A stretch of DNA of 64,000 bases, taken from Microbacterium sp. T2.11-28 (GTDB lineage: Bacteria; Actinomycetota; Actinomycetes; Actinomycetales; Microbacteriaceae). The translations under genes and the position numbers were made by a program. The DNA lies in the NCBI RefSeq assembly GCF_950097975.1, contig NZ_CATNHF010000001.1, forward strand, positions 799,446 through 863,445. The letters are read 5' to 3'. A model generated the notes under the pieces. That model had not been told where the DNA came from. It saw only the letters and a list, made by a program, of their open reading frames with translations, and ran no database searches. Shown here one piece after another: positions 25,253-58,651 of the stretch; position 1 is the stretch's first letter; each line of letters opens with the position of its first letter.

Positions 25253-25271
25253 GTTCGGTGGGCTGTTAGCA
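25253..25271. other. Left end: GTTCGGT direct repeat plus inverted repeat
   Basis: GTTCGGT (25253-25259) then GGGCTGTTAGCA (25260-25271) reading inward. Just inside are repeated CCTG-rich tracts (TTTCCTGTAGAC and TTTCCTGTAGAG at about 25316 and 25338), which could be subterminal protein-binding sites. The interval 25143-25488 holds no gene. Confidence 0.75.
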
Positions 25272-25488
25272 GAACCTGTCCTGGTGCGGATCGCGGGCAT
25301 CCGGGGTTCCTGCGTTTCCTGTAGACGGTTCCTGTTTTTCCTGTAGAGCGGGCACAGTGATGGCCCCTGCCGAACGAGGCCCAGGACCGAGAGGCTCTGG
25401 TGGGAGTCGCGGTGCACCGAGAATGGCAGAGCTGACTTAGCGAGATCATCACCGGACGTCCGGTGTCGCTCGGATAGATTGCGCTAGC

Positions 25489-29774: not shown

Positions 29775-30039
29775 GCTTGTCCTGTACGAGGGCGGATCAG
29801 AGACTCAACACGACATTGAGCCGATGAATCATTGAGAGATTTATGTTGCGCTCTTGAGTCAGTAGAACGGGCCGCTGAGCCTGTTTACGTCGCTGAGTCG
29901 GCGAATCGCGAAGGCCGCAGACGCGGCTGGTGACGGGTAACGAATGTCGATGAGTCGGCGGCTTTGCGAGAGCCGCGCCCGTTACGTTCGCGTGGTGAGA
30001 GCACCAGGTGGAGGCGGGAACGTTCGATCCTCGTCGCGG
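29775..30039. other. Divergent intergenic region
   Basis: 265 bp between the left transposase-like gene and the MbcA-like gene. TGAGTCGGCG occurs twice (about 29892 and 29950) and a GC-rich imperfect hairpin lies between the copies. No gene is seen; the stretch should hold both promoters. Confidence 0.5.
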
Positions 30040-30466: not shown

Positions 30467-31369
30467 ATGAGCGCGCGCGCCGACGAACGCTTCCGCCCTG
30501 TCGTGGCAATCGACATCGACGGTGTCCTTCGGCTCGCGGTCCCACCAGAAGGCCCGGGGCCGGAGGGGGCGTACCCGGTGGAGATGACGGTGCGCCGCAA
30601 CGCGTACCCGGACGCCTACCACCGGCCGCCGCGCTGGGGTCGGGATGGCACCGTAACGAGCACGTACTGGTTGTCGGGGATCGGGGCGGACTGGATCCGG
30701 TCGCTGCTGGCGCGTGGGGTCGAGGTGGTGTGGGCGACGACGTGGCAGGAGTACGCGAACGTGTACTTCGCCCCCGCGCTCGACATCCCCGCGTTGCCGG
30801 TCGCGACCACGGGCAAGGAGGTCCACGGGTGGGACTCCTCGGACTGGAAGAGCGTGCGGCTCCGGGAGCGATTCCCGGGACGGCCGATCGTGTGGGTCGA
30901 TGACAACCCGGTCTCCGCCGACAAGTACGCGATCGACGAGATGCGCGCCCCGCACGATCGCGCGCTCGCATACTTCCAGTTGATCTTGAATGCCCGGGAA
31001 GGGATCCGCGCCGACCACATCCAGACGGTCGAAGAGTGGCTCGAGCTGGCATCCACGATCGAGGGTCACCGGGAGCTTCGTCGTCGCCGGCACAGGAATC
31101 GGCAGTACTGGAGGCGACTGTGGGATCGGAACCGTCACGGCACCCTCGCGCGCGCGGCCCGTTGGAAGCGCGCTAACAAGTTCATACGGACACTTGTTCC
31201 GGACGGTCGACCTCACCTGCACTCGCAGCTCGCGGACTACATGCGCGACCACACCGAGCCGGACGCCACCGAGCTCCACTTCCTCGTCGAGTACTGGTGG
31301 CGCGACGACCTCGGCGACCAGGACGCCGCGGTCGACGCGATCGAGCAATGGTTCAAGGACAACCCGTGA
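30467..31369 (+). CDS. HAD-like phosphatase domain protein
   Basis: 300 aa. HAD motif I is AIDIDGVL with D16 and D18, motif II is in VVWATTWQEYAN, and motif IV is in IVWVDDN. This pattern is what I associate with the HAD domain found in 'Swiss Army Knife' RNA-repair proteins. The C-terminal ~120 residues are basic and Trp/Arg-rich (LRRRRHRNRQYWRRLWDRNRHG) and then acidic, possibly nucleic-acid binding. It is followed at 18 bp by an unknown protein and at 40 bp more by a metallophosphoesterase, so two phosphatase folds share a transcript. Repair or defence use is an inference. Confidence 0.65.
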   Translation: MSARADERFRPVVAIDIDGVLRLAVPPEGPGPEGAYPVEMTVRRNAYPDAYHRPPRWGRDGTVTSTYWLSGIGADWIRSLLARGVEVVWATTWQEYANVYFAPALDIPALPVATTGKEVHGWDSSDWKSVRLRERFPGRPIVWVDDNPVSADKYAIDEMRAPHDRALAYFQLILNAREGIRADHIQTVEEWLELASTIEGHRELRRRRHRNRQYWRRLWDRNRHGTLARAARWKRANKFIRTLVPDGRPHLHSQLADYMRDHTEPDATELHFLVEYWWRDDLGDQDAAVDAIEQWFKDNP

Positions 31370-31387
31370 CGCGCGAGGTGGTGTCGC

Positions 31388-31936
31388 ATGCGTGATCCCG
31401 ACGACAACGACCGGTTCCGTGCCGCGCAGCTCGGTCACGCACTGCGCGTCGCCCGCGTCGTCGCCGACAGGGCCGAGTCCGCCCCTGACGGCACCGAAAC
31501 ACAGACGCCGGCTGCGCTCCGTCAACTGCTGAACGCGATCGACGCTGTTGCACCGCGCACCCACCGTGGCGAGCAAGAGGAGGAACTGACCGAGGAGGAG
31601 AGGAACTTCGTTGTCTCCGCCGGGATCCCGGTGACGGTGTTCACAGACTTCGCGCGTCAGCAGGGTGAGGACTGGGTGCTGTGGTCCGCGCTCCGCGACC
31701 ACGCCGTCCACATCCACCTCGACCAACTCACGGAACATTCCGCGCTGCTGATCATCCCCGAGTTGCACCGCGTCATCGACGCGTTCCCCCTCGACTACAC
31801 CGACCTCGACAAGTTCCGCTTTCTCCGCAGACCCGACGAACAACTCGACGGGCTCTCACCCCTCCGCTGGCTGCTCCTCGGCCGTCCCGCCCGCACGGTC
31901 GTGAAGATCATCACCGACCTGAACTACCTCCCCTGA
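31388..31936 (+). CDS. Hypothetical protein with DUF2384-like C-terminus
   Basis: 182 aa. No family is recognised over the full length. The end (LDGLSPLRWLLLGRPARTVVKIITDLNYL) resembles the P..WL..G....V tail of MbcA/ParS antitoxins, recalling the gene two positions upstream. The middle is acidic (EQEEELTEEERNFV). It is tightly placed between the HAD gene and the metallophosphoesterase, 18 and 20 bp away, so it is part of that operon. Confidence 0.55.
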   Translation: MRDPDDNDRFRAAQLGHALRVARVVADRAESAPDGTETQTPAALRQLLNAIDAVAPRTHRGEQEEELTEEERNFVVSAGIPVTVFTDFARQQGEDWVLWSALRDHAVHIHLDQLTEHSALLIIPELHRVIDAFPLDYTDLDKFRFLRRPDEQLDGLSPLRWLLLGRPARTVVKIITDLNYLP

Positions 31937-31956
31937 TCCAGAACGGGACCACCACG

Positions 31957-32808
31957 ATGAAGCCACTCGAGACCGCCCGCACCATCACCCTCCCCGACAC
32001 CCAAGTCGCGGTCTGCGGGGACTGGCACGGCAACCTCGACTGGCTCCGCACCCTGGCGCCGGCGATCACCTCGCTCGCCCCTGACGTCAGAACGGTCCTG
32101 CAGCTCGGGGACTGGTGGATGCAGACCGACGCCAGCGACCGTATCTTCACCGACGCCGGGATCGAGCGCGTCTACGTCACCCTCGGCAACCACGAACCCT
32201 GGGGGGAGATAGCCCCACTCCAGCACGCTCACCCGGGTGAAGCGATCCGCATCTCGGAAGTGACGTGGTTGCTGCCCCGCCCCGCGCGCCTCCGCATCGG
32301 CGGCCGCACAATCCTGTCCCTTGGGGGCGCCGCGTCCGTCGACCGGCAATGGCGTACCGAAGGTGTCGACTGGTGGCCCGACGAGAACATCCACGGCGTC
32401 CACGTCGAAGTGGCCATCGCGGGCGGTCCCGCAGATGTCATGCTCACCCATGAATCACCCGCCGGAACACCGGTCCGGCAAGTCCGCGAGATCCTCCGCA
32501 CCAACCCCCTCGGATTCCCGAAAGCAGCCCGTCTGGAGTCCGCCGTCTCCCGCAAGCGGGTCAGCAGAGTCTGGGACGAAGTCAAACCCGACCTACTCAT
32601 GCACGGCCACATGCACACCCCCGGCGCCGGAACCACCGACGACGGCCGCCGCGTCATCAGCGTGGGATGCGACGGACAACAAGGCAACCTCGCGTTCCTC
32701 GACCTGCAAAGCCTCGAGCTCGAAACGCCGAGCCTTCGCGAGGTCCGCCACGCCGCCGAGTCTCGCGCGAGTGCCACCGAAAAGGCTCAAGACGTCATCG
32801 AGCAGTAA
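31957..32808 (+). CDS. Calcineurin-like metallophosphoesterase
   Basis: 283 aa. All metallophosphoesterase motifs are present: GDWHG (residues 20-24), QLGDWWM, GNHEPWG, a His in LTHESPAG, and MHGHMHTPG. These coordinate two metal ions and cleave phosphoesters. There is no signal peptide, so it acts in the cytoplasm. It closes a plus-strand cluster (MbcA-like, HAD, unknown, this gene). The substrate could be nucleic-acid ends, nucleotides or protein phosphate; nothing in the sequence decides. The DyP gene converges on it. Confidence 0.85.
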   Translation: MKPLETARTITLPDTQVAVCGDWHGNLDWLRTLAPAITSLAPDVRTVLQLGDWWMQTDASDRIFTDAGIERVYVTLGNHEPWGEIAPLQHAHPGEAIRISEVTWLLPRPARLRIGGRTILSLGGAASVDRQWRTEGVDWWPDENIHGVHVEVAIAGGPADVMLTHESPAGTPVRQVREILRTNPLGFPKAARLESAVSRKRVSRVWDEVKPDLLMHGHMHTPGAGTTDDGRRVISVGCDGQQGNLAFLDLQSLELETPSLREVRHAAESRASATEKAQDVIEQ

Positions 32809-47852: not shown

Positions 47853-49946
47853 TCACGCCACCATGTGGGGAACAGGTCTCACGCCAACTGTAGAAGCCGA
47901 CGGCGCCGTACGCCGTGCTGCGCGGACGCCGTTGAGGATGACGATGACTTCCGCGATTTCGTGGACGAGGACGACGCCGGCGAGCCCGAGCACGCCGAAC
48001 AGGGCCAGCGGGAACAGGCCGACGATGATAGCGAGCGCGAGGACGATGTTGGCGGTCATGATGCGCCGGCCGCGTCGGGCGTGCGCGAGCGCGCCGGGGA
48101 TGAGGCGGAGGTCGTGTCCGGTGAACGCGACGTCAGCGGACTCGATGGCCGCGGCCGATCCCTTCACTCCCATCGCGATGCCGACGGTGGCGGTGGCGAG
48201 CGCGGGGGCGTCGTTGATGCCGTCGCCGACCATCGCGGTCGGCCGGGTACGGGTGAGCGTGTCGATCGCGGCGGCCTTGTCGGCGGGGAGCTGCTCGGCG
48301 CGGACGTCGGTGATCCCGGCGTCGCGGGCGAGGGCGTGCGCGGTGGCGCTGTTGTCGCCGGTCAGCATGATCGTGTCGATGCCCTGGGCATGGAGCATCC
48401 GCACGGTCTCCGCCGACTCGGGGCGTAGTTCGTCGCGGATGCCGATGAGGCCGGCGATCGCGCCGTCGGCTTCGACCACGACAACGGTAATGCCCTGCGA
48501 GGCCATCCTGTCGGCCTCTGATCGCAATGTCACGGCATCCAGCCACCGCACATTGCCCACTCGGATCGCCCGACCGTCGACGGTGCCACGGATGCCGTGT
48601 CCGGCGTCCTCGACGACGTCCACCGCGAGGGTCGACGACGGGGCGGCAGCGATGATCGCGGACGCGAGCGGATGGGTGCTGGCCGCCTCGACCGCACCCG
48701 CCCACCGGAGGACGTCGTCGCGGGACCGGCCATCCACCGTCCGAACTTCAACGACGGCGGGTTCGTTGCGGGTGAGCGTGCCGGTCTTGTCGAACGCGAC
48801 CGCCCGGATGGTGCCGAGCCGTTCGAACGCCTCACCAGACTTGATGACGACGCCGAACTTCGACGCCGACCCGATCGCACTGATCACCGTCACCGGCACC
48901 GCGATCGCCAGCGCGCACGGCGACGCGGCGACGAGAACCACGAGGGCCCGTTCGATCCACGTCTCGGGATCGCCGACAACGAAGCCGAACAGGGCGACGA
49001 GGGCCGCCGCGATCAGCACGACGGGCACGAGCGGACGCGCGATTCGGTCGGCGAGCCGGGCGCGCTCGCCCTTGCGGGCGTGGGCCTGCTCCACGAGTGT
49101 CACGATCTGCGTCAGCGAGTTGTCGCGTCCGTCGGCCGTCGCCTCGATGCGGAGCGTCGCCGATCCGTTCACGGATCCGGCGGCGACCGCATCCCCCGGC
49201 CCGACCTCGACCGGGATCGATTCGCCCGTGATCGCGGACGTGTCCACGCTCGATCGACCCTCGACGACGACACCGTCGGTCGCCACCCGCTCCCCCGCCC
49301 CAACGACCAGGATATCGAGCTCGCGCACCTCGACCGCGGGAATCGTGGCCTCACCGGCCAGACGCGACACTCGGACCGTGTCCGGGATGAGCGAGAGCAG
49401 CGCGCGCAGACCCTCCTTCGCCCGGTCCATCGCCCGGTCTTCCAACGCCTCGGCGAGCGAGAACAGGAACGCCAGCGTGGCCGCTTCTCCGACATGACCG
49501 AGCAGCACCGCCCCGACGGCGGCGATCGTCATCAGCAGCCCGACACCCAACCGCCGCCGCATGAGACGACGCAGCGCGCCGGGAACGAACGTGTATGCGC
49601 CCGCGAGCAACGCCAGCCACTGGAACACCAGCGCCGGCACCTGCACCCCGCTCCACTCGAGCACGTAGCCGACTAGAAGGAACACTCCCGACAACGCCGA
49701 CGGCAGCAGCGCCAAGTCACGCCACCACGCCGCCCGCAGCTCGTCCGGCATCTCCGGACCCGCCGCGCGCGCGACGATATCAGGACCACAGCAGGCGTCA
49801 CCGACATCCACCACGACTTGAGGACACCCGTCGGTGACGTTCGGACCGCAGCACGCATCCCCACCTCGGGCGGGGCGAGTCATCTCGACGCGTCCGACCA
49901 GCGGCGAAGGTCGCGCCTCATCCCGACCGCAGCACTCCTCGCTCAT
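47853..49946 (-). CDS. P1B-type heavy-metal ATPase (Cd/Zn/Co type)
   Basis: 697 aa. The phosphorylation motif is DKTGTLTRN, TGES is present, and the metal-transport motif in the sixth helix is SPCALAIAVP, not CPC. The last helix has VLVHEIAEVIVILNGVRAARR. SPC plus a His-Glu in the last helix is closest to P1B-4 pumps, and the downstream CmtR-like control suggests Cd/Pb or Zn. The N-terminus carries three paired cysteines (C5-C6, C32-C33, C52-C53) in CCG repeats rather than a CxxC domain. Its ATG overlaps the regulator stop by 4 bp. Confidence 0.92.
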   Translation of the reverse strand: MSEECCGRDEARPSPLVGRVEMTRPARGGDACCGPNVTDGCPQVVVDVGDACCGPDIVARAAGPEMPDELRAAWWRDLALLPSALSGVFLLVGYVLEWSGVQVPALVFQWLALLAGAYTFVPGALRRLMRRRLGVGLLMTIAAVGAVLLGHVGEAATLAFLFSLAEALEDRAMDRAKEGLRALLSLIPDTVRVSRLAGEATIPAVEVRELDILVVGAGERVATDGVVVEGRSSVDTSAITGESIPVEVGPGDAVAAGSVNGSATLRIEATADGRDNSLTQIVTLVEQAHARKGERARLADRIARPLVPVVLIAAALVALFGFVVGDPETWIERALVVLVAASPCALAIAVPVTVISAIGSASKFGVVIKSGEAFERLGTIRAVAFDKTGTLTRNEPAVVEVRTVDGRSRDDVLRWAGAVEAASTHPLASAIIAAAPSSTLAVDVVEDAGHGIRGTVDGRAIRVGNVRWLDAVTLRSEADRMASQGITVVVVEADGAIAGLIGIRDELRPESAETVRMLHAQGIDTIMLTGDNSATAHALARDAGITDVRAEQLPADKAAAIDTLTRTRPTAMVGDGINDAPALATATVGIAMGVKGSAAAIESADVAFTGHDLRLIPGALAHARRGRRIMTANIVLALAIIVGLFPLALFGVLGLAGVVLVHEIAEVIVILNGVRAARRTAPSASTVGVRPVPHMVA

Positions 49947-50275
49947 GCGCAGCACTCGCAATGCTCATCCGCGCACGGGGCGCCTTCGTCGACGGCCACG
50001 ACCGCCTCCAACAGGTGCCGAAGGCCCAAGGTCAGGTGGGGATCCGCGATTTCGTACCGTGTCCGCCGCCCTTCCGAGCTCGCCACGACGAGCCCGCATC
50101 CCCGTAGACAGGTCAAATGATTTGACACGTTCGACCGCGTCAGATCGAGTTCTCGGGCGAGCTCCGCTGGATACCCCGGAGCATCCAGCAGCGCCAGCAG
50201 AATGCGCGACCGCGAAGGATCGGCCATTGCCCGCCCCACCCGATTCATCACGTCAACACGAGAGGCAATGGTCAT
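49943..50275 (-). CDS. cmtR: CmtR-like ArsR-family metal repressor
   Basis: 110 aa. The winged helix includes LTRSNVSNHLTCLRGCGLVVASSEGRRTRYEIAD. C56 and C60 in the recognition-helix region and C101 in the tail match the Cd/Pb-binding cysteines of mycobacterial CmtR (C57, C61, C102 there). Extra tail cysteines (C106, C108, C109) are added. It should release DNA on Cd(II)/Pb(II) and so control itself and the ATPase. An ATG one codon upstream is an equal alternative. Confidence 0.9.
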   Translation of the reverse strand: MTIASRVDVMNRVGRAMADPSRSRILLALLDAPGYPAELARELDLTRSNVSNHLTCLRGCGLVVASSEGRRTRYEIADPHLTLGLRHLLEAVVAVDEGAPCADEHCECCA

Positions 50276-50403
50276 CATGCACTGACCATACATCGTTCAC
50301 TGAACTGTCATCAAGCCCTCAGAACTACCACCAACCGTGATCGCGCTGCCAATCAGAGCGCCTGCCGGATAGCGCATGCGATCCAGCCTGTTAGTATCTA
50401 CGC
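50276..50403. promoter_or_regulatory. Divergent control region of the two metal regulators
   Basis: 128 bp between the CmtR-like gene and the ArsR gene. It contains GTTCA-C-TGAAC (50295-50305), a candidate operator for the leftward gene, within an AT-richer patch. Confidence 0.45.
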
Positions 50404-50417
50404 ATGCACGCAGATAC
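50392..50417. promoter_or_regulatory. ArsR operator spanning the start codon
   Basis: GTATCT (50394-50399) and AGATAC (50412-50417) form an inverted repeat centred on GCATGC next to the ATG at 50404. TAGTAT (50392-50397) is a -10-like hexamer overlapping the left arm. The layout implies a leaderless transcript blocked by its own product. Confidence 0.65.
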
Positions 50418-50748
50418 GCATGAAGAATCGCTGTCGCCCGAGACGCCGCTCGTCGACGTCGCGGTCGAGGTGTTCCGGCTTCTGTCCGACGCAACGCGGG
50501 TGCGGATCATCCTCGCGCTCAAGGACGGCGAGCTGTCGGTGAACCACCTGGCCGACATCCTCGATCGGCCGGCGGCATCCGTCTCGCAGCATCTCGCCAA
50601 GCTGCGCTGGGCGCGGCTCGTGCACGCGCGCCAGGACGGCAACCGCGCGTTCTACTCGCTCGTCGACGAGCACGCGCTGCGCGTCGTCAAGGAGGCGCTG
50701 CTGCAGGCAGAGCACAGCGTCGACGAACGACCCGCTCACCACGCATGA
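50404..50748 (+). CDS. ArsR/SmtB-family metal sensor
   Basis: 114 aa. The winged helix is ELSVNHLADILDRPAASVSQHLAKLRWARLVHARQDGNRAFYSL. No cysteines are present. The last helix has DEHALRVVKEALLQAEHSVDE, a D-x-H...H arrangement like the alpha-5 Zn/Ni/Co site of SmtB, CzrA and NmtR. It overlaps the following MFS gene by 4 bp and should repress that exporter until metal binds. Confidence 0.88.
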   Translation: MHADTHEESLSPETPLVDVAVEVFRLLSDATRVRIILALKDGELSVNHLADILDRPAASVSQHLAKLRWARLVHARQDGNRAFYSLVDEHALRVVKEALLQAEHSVDERPAHHA

Positions 50749-52059: not shown

Positions 52060-52638
52060 TCAGATTGACCGGCGATTTGGGCTGAGAAGCGTTCTGAGAC
52101 CCTCGACGCGCTGAGGATCGAGTCTTCCTGTCTGCAGGCTGCGGAGTTGTCGGCCGAGCCATCGCGCATGTGCGAACTCGACCGGGTCGGATGCCGCGTG
52201 AGTGGGCAGTTTGCCTGTCCGGCGCTGGTGTTCCAGGCAAGCGGCCAGTCTGCGTTCCCATATCGCACCGCGCGGGTCCCAGTCGAATGCGGGCGACACC
52301 TCCAAGCGCGCCAGCTGGTAGGCATTGAGCCGATCCTCGAACCGCCGTTGGTACCGCGCCCATTCGCCCAGGTGGCGTTCATTCTTGCCCAGGGTGTGGC
52401 GTGCCCGAGTGTTCTCACGGGGGCGTCTCCCTGTATCCCGGTGGAACTGCTCGTACGCGAGCAGTGACATGCTCCACTTCACCGCGCGCGGGTAGAGAAC
52501 GCGTTCGTCGGCGAGCAGCCGGGATGCCTCCTCCGAGTACCGCCGTCCCTCTTGATCGCGGGCGTCGATGGCCTGTCGGAGCGCATCGGCGAGCGCGTGC
52601 AGTTCCTCGTTGGTCACGGTGGTGCGCGGTCCTTCCAT
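52060..52638 (-). CDS. Helicase-associated (HA) domain-like protein
   Basis: 192 aa, mainly helical and rich in Trp, Arg and Tyr. It shows the spaced aromatic pattern of HA-domain repeats: LGEWARYQRRFEDRLNAYQLARLEVSPAFDWDPRGAIWERRLAACLEHQRRTGKLP. In larger proteins such repeats follow helicase domains and bind DNA; here they stand alone. It is oriented against the recombination operon and ends 67 bp from the MFS gene. Confidence 0.55.
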   Translation of the reverse strand: MEGPRTTVTNEELHALADALRQAIDARDQEGRRYSEEASRLLADERVLYPRAVKWSMSLLAYEQFHRDTGRRPRENTRARHTLGKNERHLGEWARYQRRFEDRLNAYQLARLEVSPAFDWDPRGAIWERRLAACLEHQRRTGKLPTHAASDPVEFAHARWLGRQLRSLQTGRLDPQRVEGLRTLLSPNRRSI

Positions 52639-52781: not shown

Positions 52782-53111
52782 ATGGCAATGCAGACGACAT
52801 CGATCAGTGATCTCTGTGGCGTGATCGCGGGCGCGTACGTCATCTCGACGAGTGACGGATGCCGGTTCCTCGTCGACATTGATGAGTGCGTAACGGTCCG
52901 GCTTGGCTCGAGCGATGAGGTGCTCATCGGGAGAGGGCAGGCTCGCTCGGATCGCCTCCTCGTCGTCGCTACGTGCCGAATCGGTGAGCCGATGGTGCTG
53001 TTGGTCGATCGCGGTGTGCCGAACGTGGAGTTCACGCGGCGCGAGACCGCCTCCGTGACGCGGATCGCTCGCCTCCTCCGCCCGCCGCAGTTCGACCGAC
53101 GTGATGCCTGA
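52782..53111 (+). CDS. Small protein heading the recombination operon
   Basis: 109 aa; not recognised. It is predicted beta-rich (SDGCRFLVDIDECVTVRLGSSDEVLIGRG) with a basic C-terminus (FTRRETASVTRIARLLRPPQF). Its TGA overlaps the next ATG (TGATG). It may be an excisionase-like or accessory DNA-binding factor, judged only from position. GGAGG lies about 13 nt upstream. Confidence 0.6.
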   Translation: MAMQTTSISDLCGVIAGAYVISTSDGCRFLVDIDECVTVRLGSSDEVLIGRGQARSDRLLVVATCRIGEPMVLLVDRGVPNVEFTRRETASVTRIARLLRPPQFDRRDA

Positions 53112-54022
53112 TGGGCGAGGACTCGAGGCGGTCGGCATCAGCGACCGACGACGCTACGCTCGCTGGCTTCCTGCCGGTGCACGCGTTGCCTTACTGGGAA
53201 GTCCTGGAACCTGTCGTGATCGCGGCGGTGAATGCGGCGGTTCGCGTTTCCAGTCGGCCACCTCGGCAGTTTCTGTCGGCGGCCACGGCGATGGCGCTGT
53301 GGGCGTGGCGGACGAAGGCACTCGCACCGGACGCGAAGGAGATCTTCCGTCGTCCGCTGGTGAACGAGTTCGTGCATCGCGGGATGCCGGGCACGACGCG
53401 CGCGACGCGCGCGACGTACCGCTCGGCGCTCGTTGTCGTCGCTGACGCCCTGCTGCCGCCGGCCGAACGGGCTTACCGGATTCCTCGTTCTGAACCGACT
53501 CCGCCCTACACGCATGCGGAGATCGCCGCGATGCGGAGCTGGGCGGTCCGGCAGGGCCACCCAGCGCGACGTCTCGATGCTCAGTTGTTGTTGGCGTTGG
53601 GGTTGGGTGCCGGGCTGACGACGCTGGAGCTGCTGCGCGTTCGCACCTCGGAAGTGGACGTGAGTGGTGATGAGGTTCGGATCCAGGTGTGGGAGGGGCG
53701 GCCCCGGGTCGTGCCAGTGCTCCGCGCGTGGCAGCAGCCTGTGAGGGACGCGCTCGAGAGCGCGACGGTCGAGCAGTGGCTGTTCCGTCCTCGTCGACGT
53801 GGAGTCCAGCCCGGGCAGGTCACCGACTTCCTCCATCGCCGGCACGACACTCCGGTCGACGTGCGTCCCGTGCGGATGCGGACGACCTGGCTCCTCACCC
53901 ACCTCACCCTCGGCACACCTCCCCACGAGTTGCTTCGGATCGCCGGGTTGGAGCAGTTGGCGTCGCTCGACCGGATCAACCGGTTCCTGCCGCCGCGAGC
54001 TCCGAAGCCCTCGCGGGGCTAA
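53111..54022 (+). CDS. Tyrosine-recombinase-like protein 1 (divergent)
   Basis: 303 aa. The C-terminal half follows the tyrosine-recombinase fold: HAEIAAMRSWA, then GLGAGLTTLELLRVRTSEV (box I), RPRVVPVLRAW, and VRMRTTWLLTHLTLG with R257 (box II). The box I arginine is replaced by Thr (T170), and the terminal DRINRFLPP lacks the catalytic Tyr. It aligns with the next protein, which has the same AGLT and R-T-W motifs. It is therefore probably not a nuclease by itself; a DNA-binding or structural role in a recombination complex is an inference. Confidence 0.7.
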   Translation: MGEDSRRSASATDDATLAGFLPVHALPYWEVLEPVVIAAVNAAVRVSSRPPRQFLSAATAMALWAWRTKALAPDAKEIFRRPLVNEFVHRGMPGTTRATRATYRSALVVVADALLPPAERAYRIPRSEPTPPYTHAEIAAMRSWAVRQGHPARRLDAQLLLALGLGAGLTTLELLRVRTSEVDVSGDEVRIQVWEGRPRVVPVLRAWQQPVRDALESATVEQWLFRPRRRGVQPGQVTDFLHRRHDTPVDVRPVRMRTTWLLTHLTLGTPPHELLRIAGLEQLASLDRINRFLPPRAPKPSRG

Positions 54023-54118
54023 CTCGTCGGGTGCCTGGAGAGCTGGCGGTGCGGCGTGTGTCGTTGGCTCTCGAGATGGTCGTGCGCAAACTTTTCCGTC
54101 GCCGCGTACATGCTCGGC

Positions 54119-55117
54119 ATGACCGACTCTCGAAAAGACCGACTCTCCGACATTCCCGCCCACATCGAGGCCATCCGGGACCACCACCCGCGGGTCAACG
54201 ACCGCGCGTGGAAGATGATCACCCGCTACGAACCGATCAGCCGCGACCTTCGCGGAGCGTGGGCGGAGGTGCGCCCTTTCACGGTCGACACTGCCGCCTC
54301 GATGTTGCCCGACACCTTCAACGTCACCCGCCGACTGATGTCGATGACCGCCCGCTTCCACTGCTGGGTGTGGGCGCGCACGGGTATCGAACTGACGGTC
54401 CAGGCCGTCTATACGCAGAGCCACATCGATCGCTACCTCGCGGCGGAACACAAGAACAGCTCCGTGCCGCACCGCTACGGAACCTCGCAGCAGATCGTCC
54501 ACGTCGGACGCGTCCTCGCAGACCTCGACCTCGTCACGGCGCCGTTCCAGGGCGACAAGGTCCGCGACGCGTTCACGAAGAAGCAGATCGCGATCATGCA
54601 CAGTTGGGCGAACTCGCGGACGACCCTCCTGAAGCGGCAGAACGCGTGGGCGATCCTCGGCCTCGCCGGCGGCGCCGGACTCACCTCGGCGGAGATCGTC
54701 AACGCCCGCGTCGGCGACATTGTTCGCGACGGTGAACTGACGTTCGTCCACGTCCATGGCGACCGAGCCCGACGCGTTCCCGTCCGGCAGTCATGGTCCC
54801 GTGCCCTGCTCCGCAGCATCGAGGGTCGGGAGAGCGCGGACGAGAACCTGTTCGTCGGCTTCCGCGACGACGAGTACCCGCCGCGGGTCATCCAGCACTT
54901 CCTCAGCGACAACCCCGCACCGGTGCGCCCGACGCCCGCGGCGCTGCGCACCAGCTGGCTGATGCACCACATCGACAACAACGTCCCTGTGACCGTGCTT
55001 CAGCAGGTCTCCGGCATCCAGCACCTCCAGACGCTCGTCCGCTACTACGAGAACGCCCTACCCCTCGAGGTCGCCGACTACACCGCGCTCCTCACCGGGA
55101 CGGAGGCGGCCCGATGA
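54119..55117 (+). CDS. Tyrosine-recombinase-like protein 2 (divergent)
   Basis: 332 aa. An N-terminal helical core-binding-like part (1-150) is followed by KKQIAIMHSWANSR, GLAGGAGLTSAEIVNARVGDI, DRARRVPVRQSW, and TPAALRTSWLMHHI with R277. QVSGIQHLQTLVRYYENAL retains Tyr309/310 at the nucleophile position. The box I Arg is again Thr and the box II/III His are missing. The ATG at 54119 follows TACATGCTC; ATG 54110 is possible. It is coupled to the transposase-like gene by a 4-bp overlap. Confidence 0.7.
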   Translation: MTDSRKDRLSDIPAHIEAIRDHHPRVNDRAWKMITRYEPISRDLRGAWAEVRPFTVDTAASMLPDTFNVTRRLMSMTARFHCWVWARTGIELTVQAVYTQSHIDRYLAAEHKNSSVPHRYGTSQQIVHVGRVLADLDLVTAPFQGDKVRDAFTKKQIAIMHSWANSRTTLLKRQNAWAILGLAGGAGLTSAEIVNARVGDIVRDGELTFVHVHGDRARRVPVRQSWSRALLRSIEGRESADENLFVGFRDDEYPPRVIQHFLSDNPAPVRPTPAALRTSWLMHHIDNNVPVTVLQQVSGIQHLQTLVRYYENALPLEVADYTALLTGTEAAR

Positions 55118-57060
55118 GCACCACCGACACCGACTACCACCTCCCCGGCTACACCACCGAGTTCGGTGGCATCACCGAACGGGAGATCGTCGGCCGCGGG
55201 CGCAACATGCAGACCGTCGACCCCGGCCTCGTCGCCCTCGTCGAGTCGCGTGTCCGGAAGTCCGGCGTCCTCGAACAGCTCGAGCGGTGGAGCGCCGAAG
55301 ACGCCAACCCCGACGGGATGGGCGGCAGGCCCGCCGCCATCTCCTTCCGCGCCCTCCTCACCGCGATGCTCATCCTCACCCACGAGGGCGCACCGCTGCA
55401 CATGAGTCGCGCGGCCACGCTCCTGCAGCACCGCCTCGACGATCAGTCCCGCACGCTGCTCGGGGTGTCGAAGCCGGCCACCGCGTTCGCGACGCACACG
55501 GCGATCAACGCCCGCTGGTACAACAACACGGTCCGCGCCTTCCACCGCATCATCCGACTCGTCGACCCCTACCCGCAGGAGCGATACACGTCGAAGACGC
55601 ACACGCAGATCCAGCGGATCCTGAAGGAACACGACGCGGAACGTGCCGACAAGTACAAGGCGCGCCTCGATCACTTCACCCGAGTCATGCTGAACATGTC
55701 GTTCATGGAGCAGCCGAGGCAGATCCGCCGCGCCTCCAAGCAGATGGACGTCTCCTTCGACCAGACCTACGTCGGCACCCCGACGACGAAGGGCTACTCC
55801 AAGAAGCACCTCAACGCCCGTGTTCGGGCCGAGAAGGGCGCCGACCTCGGTCAGCTCGCTCCAGGACCGGTCGACGCGTTCGCCGGCTGGCACGCCAAGA
55901 GCGGCAAGGGCGAACGCAACGACCACCAGAAGGGCGAGATCGATCAGACCGCCCCCGGACGCGGCGAGTACACCAACTACGACTGGGGATGGGTCGCCAA
56001 CCTCGCCGTCCGCGTCGACTCCGAAGCCGCCGGCTCCAAACGCTTCCCCGGCCTCGTCGTCGCCGCGTCGCTCAGCATCCCCAACATGGAGGTCGCCGAA
56101 GAAGCCACCCGCCTTCTTCAGACTGCCGCGACGATCGACCCCACCCTCACCCCTGGGGTCGCCGATGCCGACAAGCAGTACTTCGCGAACAGCAAGTCGT
56201 TCCGGCTCCTCGTTCCCGCACTGGAAGTCGGGTTCACCCCGTCGACCGACTACCGGACCGACCGGATGGGTGTAAAGGGCGGAGACCACGGTGCCCTCTT
56301 CGTCGAAGGCGAGGCCTACTGCCCCAGCACACCAAAGGAGTACCTCGAGGCGACTCCCATGTACCTCGCGGACAACATCGACCGGCCTACCTACCGAGCC
56401 CGCCTCGAAGAACGAGAGAACTACCGCCTCCACGTCAAAGAGAAGGCAAAGACCCCCGCCGGGAAGGTGATGCTCCGCTGCCCCGCGCTCGGCAAGTCAC
56501 CGACAGTCACCTGCCCGCTTCGCGAGCTCATGGTCGGCGCCGCCATCAAGGCGCGACCTGAGGTCAAGCCGGAAGAGATCGAGGAAGAGTTCCTCGACAC
56601 CATCTGCACGAAGCACTCCGCCGCCTTCGATCTCACCGAGATGCAGTCGCCGCCGCAGGCGTTCGACTACGGCAGCGAGGAATGGGAACAGTTCCACGAT
56701 CACGCCCGCAACTCCATCGAGTCCGAGAACGGCCAGCTCAAGACATCGGGCAACGACGACATCGAGACCGCCGGCCGCCGGAAGGTCCGCGGCATCGCGG
56801 CCGCCCAAGTGATGATCACCATGCTCCTGGTCAACCACAACATCCGGAAGATCGCCGCGTTCTTCAGCGACAAGGAAAAGGAGAAGGCACGCACCACCCC
56901 ACGCATCCCCCTCCTCCGCCGCAGAGACCGCGTCTGGGCTAACCGGTACACGAAGACCACTGGCAACGGCGACCTCACGATCCCCCGAGGAGTAGCAGCC
57001 CACACTCTCAAGGCACACGAGCAAACGTCGCGGCCCCTCGCCATTCCCCTGCGAACCTGA
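55114..57060 (+). CDS. DDE-transposase-like protein, right copy
   Basis: 648 aa. A probable RNase H-like triad is D216 (MDVSFDQTYVG), D351 or D353 (GVADADKQYF), and E536 (HARNSIESENGQLK), the last matching the 'R..vE...g.lK' end motif of several DDE transposases. An insert with C403, C456 (LRCPALGK), C467 (TVTCPLR) and C498 may bind zinc. The N-terminus (~40-120) and C-terminus match the 486-aa protein at the left end. It closes an operon with two recombinase-like genes, an uncommon mixture. Its end is 240 bp from the right boundary. Confidence 0.7.
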   Translation: MSTTDTDYHLPGYTTEFGGITEREIVGRGRNMQTVDPGLVALVESRVRKSGVLEQLERWSAEDANPDGMGGRPAAISFRALLTAMLILTHEGAPLHMSRAATLLQHRLDDQSRTLLGVSKPATAFATHTAINARWYNNTVRAFHRIIRLVDPYPQERYTSKTHTQIQRILKEHDAERADKYKARLDHFTRVMLNMSFMEQPRQIRRASKQMDVSFDQTYVGTPTTKGYSKKHLNARVRAEKGADLGQLAPGPVDAFAGWHAKSGKGERNDHQKGEIDQTAPGRGEYTNYDWGWVANLAVRVDSEAAGSKRFPGLVVAASLSIPNMEVAEEATRLLQTAATIDPTLTPGVADADKQYFANSKSFRLLVPALEVGFTPSTDYRTDRMGVKGGDHGALFVEGEAYCPSTPKEYLEATPMYLADNIDRPTYRARLEERENYRLHVKEKAKTPAGKVMLRCPALGKSPTVTCPLRELMVGAAIKARPEVKPEEIEEEFLDTICTKHSAAFDLTEMQSPPQAFDYGSEEWEQFHDHARNSIESENGQLKTSGNDDIETAGRRKVRGIAAAQVMITMLLVNHNIRKIAAFFSDKEKEKARTTPRIPLLRRRDRVWANRYTKTTGNGDLTIPRGVAAHTLKAHEQTSRPLAIPLRT

Positions 57061-57216: not shown

Positions 57217-57271
57217 GCCGTAAAGACAGACGGGCACTCGCGCAATGCGAGTGCCCGTCTGTCTTTACGGC
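57217..57271. repeat. Perfect 25-bp stem hairpin inside the right end
   Basis: Two perfectly complementary 25-bp arms (57217-57241 and 57247-57271) with a 5-nt GCAAT loop; arms begin GCCGTAAAGACAG. It lies 29 bp inside the element's right boundary. It could terminate the leftward tRNA-Thr transcript (CTTTACGGCCTTT follows in that direction) or serve the recombination machinery. Confidence 0.9.
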
Positions 57272-57288
57272 AGTTTTGCAAACAGTAT

Positions 57289-57307
57289 TGCTAACGGCCC
57301 GTTCGGT
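57289..57307. other. Right end: inverted repeat plus GTTCGGT direct repeat
   Basis: TGCTAACGGCCC (57289-57300) is the inverted partner of the left-end repeat. GTTCGGT (57301-57307) repeats the left-flank heptamer. The last base of the heptamer is the discriminator position of tRNA-Thr, so insertion preserves the tRNA. GCAATACTG and GCAAAACTG just inside (read on the minus strand) form a short direct repeat that may bind protein. Confidence 0.75.
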
Positions 57308-57379
57308 GCCGGCTACAGGACTTGAACCTGCAACCCCCGTATTACAAGTACGGTGCGCTACCAATTGCGCCAAGCCGGC
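57307..57379 (-). tRNA. tRNA-Thr (anticodon TGT)
   Basis: Read on the minus strand it folds as a cloverleaf: acceptor stem GCCGGC paired with GCCGGC, D-arm GCGCAATTGGTAGCGC, anticodon arm CCGTA-CTTGTAA-TACGG with anticodon TGT, a variable loop, and T-arm with GGTTCAAGTCC. CCA is not fully encoded. Its 3' end abuts the inserted element. Confidence 0.95.
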
Positions 57380-58392: not shown

Positions 58393-58651
58393 GGAACCTC
58401 TTGTGAAAACGAGTGCGGCGGCATGATGAAGCCGCCCGGTCGCACGGGATTGCGACCAGATCGATGGTAGTCAGACACCCTGAGAAAACCCCAGACACGG
58501 TTTGCCCGCGAATGCGCTTTCACACTTCTGGGGACCGGGTCCGCGTGCGATACTTGACCTGCGTCCTCCCGGGACGTGCGGGCCAAGCCCCCGCTCATTC
58601 CATTCACTACGGATCGTCCGGCACGTACCTGCCGGTGAAGGAGAAGAACAA

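Follow-up and report, generated by a model that had tools for sequence, protein, structure and literature searches.

How would an operon that joins two tyrosine-recombinase-like (TR) proteins to a DDE-transposase-like protein move DNA, and to what place? Such an operon occupies positions 52782–57060 of a 64,000-nt stretch from Microbacterium sp. T2.11-28; the whole of this stretch is referred to below as the window. Our analysis of its sequence points, with a probability of about 0.7, to the operon being the right-end transposition module of a 32-kb transposon, a member of a family of tRNA-gene-targeting DDE elements in Actinomycetota, in which the DDE protein would perform the chemistry and the inactivated TRs would bind DNA. 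The four genes appear to form the mobility apparatus of a bacterial family of mobile DNA that has no name yet. The original prediction, a DDE transposon with TRs as accessory DNA binders, is supported by the conserved gene pair, the lost active sites of the TRs, the retained D-D-E triad, and the terminal inverted repeats (TIRs) at the element ends, flanked by short direct repeats that vary from target to target, the TRs being presumed to bind DNA. Beyond that prediction, the place of insertion is fixed: it is the 3′ end of tRNA or tmRNA genes.

Gene Organization and Catalytic Residues

The operon encodes a small protein, TR1, TR2, and the DDE-like protein, in this order (Table 1). The four genes had been described as all coupled; this holds for the small gene and TR1 (TGATG) and for TR2 and the DDE gene (ATGA), but TR1 and TR2 do not overlap. 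The gap between them is about 33–87 bp, set by the choice of the TR2 start.

TR2 passed the cut-off of the Pfam family Phage_integrase (E 6.9e-8). TR1 was weak in Pfam (E 0.046) and matched NCBIfam XerA better (E 6.8e-4), far below the cut-off of that model. The TR profile matched solved recombinases, namely, XerC-like 4a8e (E 1.1e-15) and XerA 5hxy (E 2.6e-7), and the catalytic residues were placed by eye on the alignment to these two proteins. The best Foldseek matches of the TR2 structure model (pLDDT 64) were XerH, Cre, and XerA (E 4.6e-4 and up); the domain packing of this model is not right, since the TM-scores to the three were at most 0.28.

As had been read from the window alone, Thr replaces the box I Arg in both TRs, and the nucleophile Tyr is missing from one of them: TR1 has Ile in this place, and TR2 has Tyr. 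The complete R-H-R-H/W-Y set was found in none of 20 TRs. Arg I was present in 3 of them, Arg II in 19, and Tyr in 8; box II His was present in none, and box III His/Trp in none of the 19 readable. Arg I is also retained by TR2 of Cryobacterium, which stands outside the set of 20. The first half of the TR of locus L024 was unaligned, with an integrase-like open reading frame upstream; this gene seems to have been cut by another insertion, and the protein was counted among the 20 by its catalytic half. Zinc-finger families were absent from the Pfam matches of the 20 TRs.

The 648-aa protein gave nothing in Pfam, NCBIfam, or PHROG up to E 10. Nevertheless, the triad proposed for it proved intact: in an alignment of 16 sequences, D216, D353, and E536 were the sole Asp or Glu residues in invariant or nearly invariant columns, and the triad was kept in 15 of the 16 (L073 has Gly at the first D). 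A profile of 28 relatives was compared with a three-sequence alignment of IS1182-type transposases (PF13751), and the third catalytic motif together with the part following it was aligned locally (score 46, probability 66, E 5.5e-5 for one comparison). Single IS1182-type sequences scored 39, 33, and 25 versus shuffle maxima of 19, 18, and 21. A full-length match to PF13751 transposases was not found; the alignment was weak and C-terminal only.

Occurrence of the Gene Pair

The DDE protein was searched for in 396 genomes of the order, of which 13 had a match, and the DDE profile in 396 genomes of the phylum, of which 21 had a match (the window genome counted in both). Set 1 comprised the window, 15 regions from the order search, three Streptomyces plasmid loci (L073, L074, and L075; three of six matches were examined), and Cryobacterium glucosi L076. 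Each of the 16 near-complete DDE genes of this set (window, L022–L026, L028–L030, L033–L035, and L073–L076) is directly preceded by one TR gene or two, in many cases overlapping by 4 bp. No TR lay upstream of L027, which is shortened, or of L031, L032, and L036, which are fragments. Set 2 comprised 20 regions from the phylum search, belonging to 17 genomes outside set 1 and gathered irrespective of tRNAs; weak matches in genomes G614, G768, and G804 were left out. The DDE profile matched 19 of these 20 regions (not L180), several as fragments, and a TR was present in 13 of the 19. The gene order was thus found again in many genera, so the pairing of TR and DDE genes is not due to chance. The TR and DDE trees of 19 elements had five sister pairs and a five-row clade in common.

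In the three Streptomyces records, the TR and DDE genes were both annotated as hypothetical, and a divergent helix-turn-helix gene was located upstream; these linear plasmids carry a plasmid-borne subfamily composed of the helix-turn-helix, TR, and DDE genes. The HA-domain protein of the window (Table 1) was also found upstream of the operon in Cryobacterium (L076). On contig C48 of Cryobacterium G1024, a DDE relative without a TR match or nearby tRNA lies about 20 kb from a complete module. The Pseudobutyrivibrio match L077 was rejected as a chance match, having no profile hit, and no member of the family was confirmed in viral contigs.

Target Genes

In the window, the tRNA-Thr gene begins 245 bp past the DDE gene and faces it; the element of L076 has the same geometry beside tRNA-Pro. 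A convergent tRNA gene at up to 400 bp from the DDE 3′ end was found in 14 of the 19 rows of set 1, L032 being excluded because its contig ends at the match. The distance was 216–251 bp in 13 of them and 389 bp in L031, where it was measured from the end of the fragment. Set 2 gave a convergent tRNA at 116–243 bp in 13 of 19 regions, and a tmRNA at 201 bp in L169 brings this to 14 of 19, all within 250 bp. In L174 and L175, a convergent tmRNA was located farther off (1.6 and 4.0 kb), perhaps due to another insertion in between. As a control, a convergent tRNA or tmRNA within 400 bp was found for 4 of 645 genes, called with a simple in-house caller on 44 other stretches (832 kb, 10 tRNAs); this rate can only be raised by the inclusion of four stretches (L067–L070) chosen for holding the tRNA-Thr site.

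The targets were tRNAs for Thr, Pro, Ser, Leu, Met, Lys, Glu, Gly, and Tyr, as well as tmRNA. In 27 loci, including those at tmRNA, the distance from the insertion point to the start of the T-arm motif is 14 nt (13 in L176; L076 counted once). This spacing follows from the shape of tRNA, and hence it checks the placement by hand and names a candidate signal but is no proof.

Element Ends and Empty Sites

A free scan for ends separated the elements poorly from controls, 19 of 364 of which scored at least 24 (scores 24–28), and therefore only the scan anchored at tRNA nt 72/73 was used. Nt 72/73 was already the endpoint of the best free-scan matches for the window, L023, L030, and L028. Anchoring, the placement of nt 72/73 by hand, and the threshold of 24 were chosen after the first results, and set 2 was scanned by the same rules. 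The controls, taken from stretches of other elements on both strands, are strict because some hold the ends of true relatives.

With anchoring, scores of at least 24 were obtained in set 1 for L023 (28), L030 (26), the window (25), L024 (25), and L028 (24), the maximum of 378 controls being 23. In set 2, they were obtained for G670 (28), G477 (24), and G665 (24), with a maximum of 23 in 754 controls. In total, 8 of 27 distinct elements reached the threshold versus 0 of 1,132 controls (L076 was in both runs). Weaker ends, in the range of the controls, were those of L162 (23), L166 (22), L171 (22), G533 (21), G607 (20), L025 (19), and L034 (18). The direct repeats measured 7 bp in the window, L023, and G670, 6 bp in L030 and L024, 8 bp in L028, and 5 bp in G477 and G665. 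A repeat that varies had been named as the expectation for a DDE enzyme, and the mapped ends agree with it, the short repeats differing between targets. At their start the ends have GG(G), and TTCGTGAAC-like repeats were seen by eye in several. The shortest of the eight elements measures 6.8 kb (L024, for which a second left end lies at 5.4 kb) and the longest 41 kb. In the G357 stretch (L024), GTTGGT precedes both of the nested left ends, 6.8 and 5.4 kb from the tRNA, which would fit repeated use of one tRNA.

Empty sites were sought for three elements in relatives. For L030, relative G1015 (L156) aligned over the joined flanks at tRNA-Glu (655 bp at 84%). For L023, relative G384 (L147) aligned across the junction at tRNA-Leu, with an unaligned stretch about 40–125 bp from the junction and a 4-nt gap in a nearby hairpin loop. 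Neither site had an indel at the junction, which is what would be seen if one copy of the repeat had been the original site; the 6–7 letters of those copies differ between species. The tRNA lies on one side of the insertion point and its terminator-like hairpin on the other.

The left end of the window element is placed by the TIR, the repeat, and a drop in G+C content from 0.76 to 0.64 between the 1-kb windows flanking 25260. Position 29865 was rejected as the left end: it gave a 10-bp match without a direct repeat in the scans, whereas 25260 has the TIR, the repeat, and the G+C step. An island of the tyrosine-integrase type at tRNA-Thr was likewise rejected, no copy of the tRNA 3′ end being found on the left side. 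In four of five relatives, the sequences at 18.07 and 57.3 kb of the window lie at most 1.1 kb apart, so that 7 kb more than the element is missing from this place; in the fifth, 6.3 kb of unrelated sequence separates them. The block at 18.1–25.25 kb, between the conserved chromosome and the element, appears by eye to contain sugar ABC-transporter, glycosidase, and regulator genes. Since it is absent at tRNA-Thr in the five relatives, the locus has changed more than once. Hairpins at a place comparable to that of the window hairpin (Table 1) were seen by eye in L022, L033, and L076.

Table 1. Positions of the predicted element, its genes, and its ends in the 64,000-nt window.
Feature	Position	Strand	Remarks
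Whole element, 32,041 bp	25260–57300	.	TIR + direct repeat score 25; 378 controls, maximum 23
Left direct repeat GTTCGGT, 7 bp	25253–25259		putative target-site duplication
Left TIR GGGCTGTTAGCAGAACCTGT, first base of the element	25260–25279	+	14/20 bases match right end
Second DDE-like relative, shortened, 486 aa	28314–29774	-	probably a remnant; near left end of the element, no adjacent TR match
P-type metal ATPase, 702-aa frame (632 aa from 49751)	47853–49961	-	Pfam E1-E2_ATPase E 1.9e-45
ArsR-family regulator pair	49943–50293, 50404–50748	-, +	HTH_5 arsR E 4.2e-14, 2.8e-11
HA (helicase-associated) domain protein	52060–52638	-	Pfam HA E 1.6e-6
Small protein, 109 aa	52782–53111	+	relatives in Cryobacterium (two copies) and L034
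TR1, 303 aa	53111–54022	+	TR-like, active site lost (T-V-R-L-I)
TR2, 335 aa	about 54110–55117	+	TR-like, active site lost (T-A-R-I-Y)
DDE-transposase-like protein, 648 aa	55114–57060	+	D216 D353 E536
Perfect 25-bp hairpin, between DDE gene and right end	57217–57271	.	probably a two-way terminator
Right end, two TTGCnAAC repeats (by eye), terminal GGCCC	57273–57300	-	
Right direct repeat GTTCGGT	57301–57307	.	last base taken as tRNA discriminator base
Target tRNA-Thr (TGT) gene	57305–57379	-	left intact

Proposed Mechanism of Insertion and Alternatives

According to the preferred reading, the DDE protein would bind, cut, and join the ends of the element. The TR-fold proteins, having lost recombination, would bind DNA, and one or both may recognize the tRNA gene, perhaps by its T-arm. 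They would place the transposase so that the insertion falls just outside the acceptor stem; as the tRNA is left intact, this would be a safe-site strategy. We also lean toward a wider claim drawn from the same sequences, that of a targeted DDE superfamily independent of Tn7. In it, one or two inactivated TRs would read tRNA and tmRNA genes, possibly by the T-arm, guide a stand-alone DDE protein to the discriminator base without an AAA+ regulator, and thereby spread metal-resistance and anti-phage cargo in Actinomycetota.

Several results weigh against this reading. The box I Arg persists in 3 of the 20 TRs and in Cryobacterium TR2, and the Tyr in 8 of the 20. Pfam DDE_Tnp_1_6 (PF13751) was touched by just 2 of the 16 DDE proteins (best E 0.0014), the IS1182-type sequence L209 barely exceeded its shuffles (24.6 versus 20.9), and the structure model of the DDE protein had a mean pLDDT of 32 and was unusable, which leaves its RNase H-like fold a presumption. 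The ends of 19 of the 27 elements did not exceed the controls (some of these elements are at contig ends), and repeats of 5–8 bp are more variable than is usual within one transposase family. A convergent tRNA within 400 bp was absent from L035, L036, L073, L074, and L075 in set 1, and neither a convergent tRNA nor tmRNA was found in L170 (where 517 bp of contig remain), L172, and L173 of set 2. The left flank of the window element was beside the tRNA in none of 247 genomes of the genus, which left this element with no empty site. Moreover, the full-length DDE gene of L162 has no TR match upstream. Finally, the tRNA isotype fits neither tree of the 19 elements (10 changes on the TR tree and 11 on the DDE tree).

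The last two results bear on the possibility that the DDE protein alone recognizes tRNA genes and the TRs bind the ends, regulate, or do something similar, which we consider unlikely. L162 would be an example: its DDE gene is full length, its target is a tRNA-Leu gene, and its candidate ends score 23, as high as the best control. In addition, the isotype is not clearly better placed on the TR tree than on the DDE tree. However, a TR gene directly precedes every near-complete DDE gene of set 1, and L162 may depend on TRs supplied in trans, or its own may have been lost since insertion.

It is quite improbable that the TRs are real integrases joining a circular element to the tRNA end, with the TIRs as core sites, the 5–8 bp repeats as the crossover overlap, and the DDE protein as an accessory. 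Inverted core sites around a 6–8 bp overlap would indeed mimic a TIR with a direct repeat, the TR genes are nearly as constant in place as the DDE gene, and tRNA 3′ ends are classic targets of TRs. Yet it is the recombinase residues that are lost (box II His from all 20 TRs, Arg I from 17 of them, and box III His/Trp from all 19 readable ones) and the D-D-E triad that is kept. In addition, the left side of the window lacks the tRNA 3′-end copy, and related elements at different tRNAs do not have the same repeat. A further, weak point against this rival is that the near-identical right ends of L026 and L027 (G375) abut two different tRNA-Leu genes and differ by one base in the repeat region.

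Tn3-family transposons carry TR resolvases, and those with TnpI or TnpS/TnpT pair DDE and TR proteins. By analogy, the DDE protein could transpose by copying while the TRs resolve cointegrates instead of choosing the target. We regard this division of labor as very improbable: a resolvase needs active catalysis, the TRs here are without the catalytic set, and a fixed tRNA target is not a known trait of Tn3. That unrelated mobile genes merely gathered at tRNA loci, which are general hot spots of integration, with coincidental ends, is hardly credible despite the overlap of the free scan with its controls, given the replication in set 2 (14 of 19 versus 4 of 645), the single orientation and narrow distance, the lack of anchored controls scoring at least 24, and the existence of empty sites.

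Cargo Genes

Apart from the metal ATPase and the ArsR-family regulators (Table 1), the window element encodes copper-binding PCuAC and CopC, DyP peroxidase, thioredoxin-like proteins, cytochrome-assembly genes, and an MFS transporter. No AAA+ or Tns family was found among the proteins of this element scanned with Pfam, which covered part of its open reading frames. The 7.4-kb element of G665 encodes an AlbA-domain protein, a BNR-repeat protein, a TR, and a DDE protein; TnsA, TnsC, and TniQ were absent from those of its proteins that were scanned, again part of the open reading frames. A CBASS-type cyclase was encoded in the L030 element. Among elements with candidate ends, a HamB-like helicase was found in L025, AbiD with an EcoRI-type restriction-modification pair in L171, and an AAA/OLD-TOPRIM protein in L162.

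Likely anti-phage cargo (AbiD/restriction-modification, AlbA-domain, CBASS-type cyclase, HamB-like helicase, and OLD-like) was observed beside or inside the modules of L171, L178, L128, L131, and L162. Positions 30467–32808 of the window encode a protein whose start is like that of a DxD phosphatase, a metallophosphoesterase, and small proteins; similar genes were seen by eye in several elements and possibly form a shared accessory set. Outside the element, an msiK RNA motif (Rfam RF01747) is located at 58592–58649 (+), upstream of an ABC-transporter ATPase gene.

Comparison with Known Systems

Among bacterial DDE transposons, fixed-site insertion is best known from Tn7-like elements, which need an AAA+ regulator. 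Their hallmark, TnsB with TnsC and TniQ/TnsD, was not found among the scanned proteins of the window and G665 elements. IS1182-type transposases share an alignable third catalytic motif with the window family and no overall match; to our knowledge, TR partners, large cargo, and a tRNA target are not traits of IS1182 elements. Tn554, RIT, and GInt carry operons of several active TRs and are not known to include a DDE enzyme. The intact R-H/K-R-H/W-Y set was not found in the TRs of the window family, unlike in Tn554, RIT, GInt, Tsy, and integrative and conjugative elements (ICE).

The statement that recombinase elements include no DDE enzyme was too broad: the Tn7-like Tn6022 uses an inactivated tyrosine recombinase, TnsF, with zinc fingers and a partial catalytic domain, as its target selector (PMC10293859). 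The window family resembles Tn6022 with TnsF in being a DDE transposon with an inactivated TR, a fixed target, and a target-site duplication (PMC10293859). Its differences are a single DDE protein that gave no TnsB-type family match, one or two proteins of the TR fold, targets that are tRNA or tmRNA genes, and the lack of Tns genes among the proteins scanned. Whereas TnsF has zinc fingers, contacts TniQ, and targets comM, the TRs studied here go with tRNA or tmRNA targets, and no TniQ was found. TnsF is the nearest precedent for the role proposed for the TRs, which would probably be the choice of target. Tsy is an operon pairing a TnsF-like TR with a helix-turn-helix gene, in which active TRs do the chemistry without a DDE enzyme and comM is the target (PMC10293859).

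Transposition at tRNA genes has also been described for Tn7-like elements and CRISPR-associated transposons (CAST) of types I-B2, I-D, and V-K, which home by means of TnsD/TniQ or a guide RNA (PMC11406308, PMC10293859). These are likewise DDE transposons beside tRNA genes, and CyCAST is described as inserting 30–33 nt beyond the tRNA end (PMC10293859). In contrast, the edge of the elements studied here lies 5–8 bp beyond nt 72/73, and no Tns gene was found. The eukaryotic Dada DNA transposons insert into tRNA or snRNA genes (PMC3706591, PMC8869645). RNA-gene targeting is thus common to both; Dada elements, however, are eukaryotic and inserted within the RNA genes, and no TR partner is mentioned in the accessible portions of these sources. 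We recognized no description of a DDE and TR element at tRNA genes among the matches listed, several of them accessible in part, in a survey whose scope excluded subscription papers and ISfinder.

If the preferred reading is true, the family would represent a new way of directing DNA insertion to a single base next to tRNA genes with two or three proteins, simpler than that of Tn7-like elements. It would be the second case, after TnsF, of inactivated recombinases serving a DDE transposase. These elements would also be vehicles, so far overlooked, for metal resistance and for likely defence genes, including type II restriction-modification, AbiD, the CBASS-type cyclase, and the HamB-like helicase.

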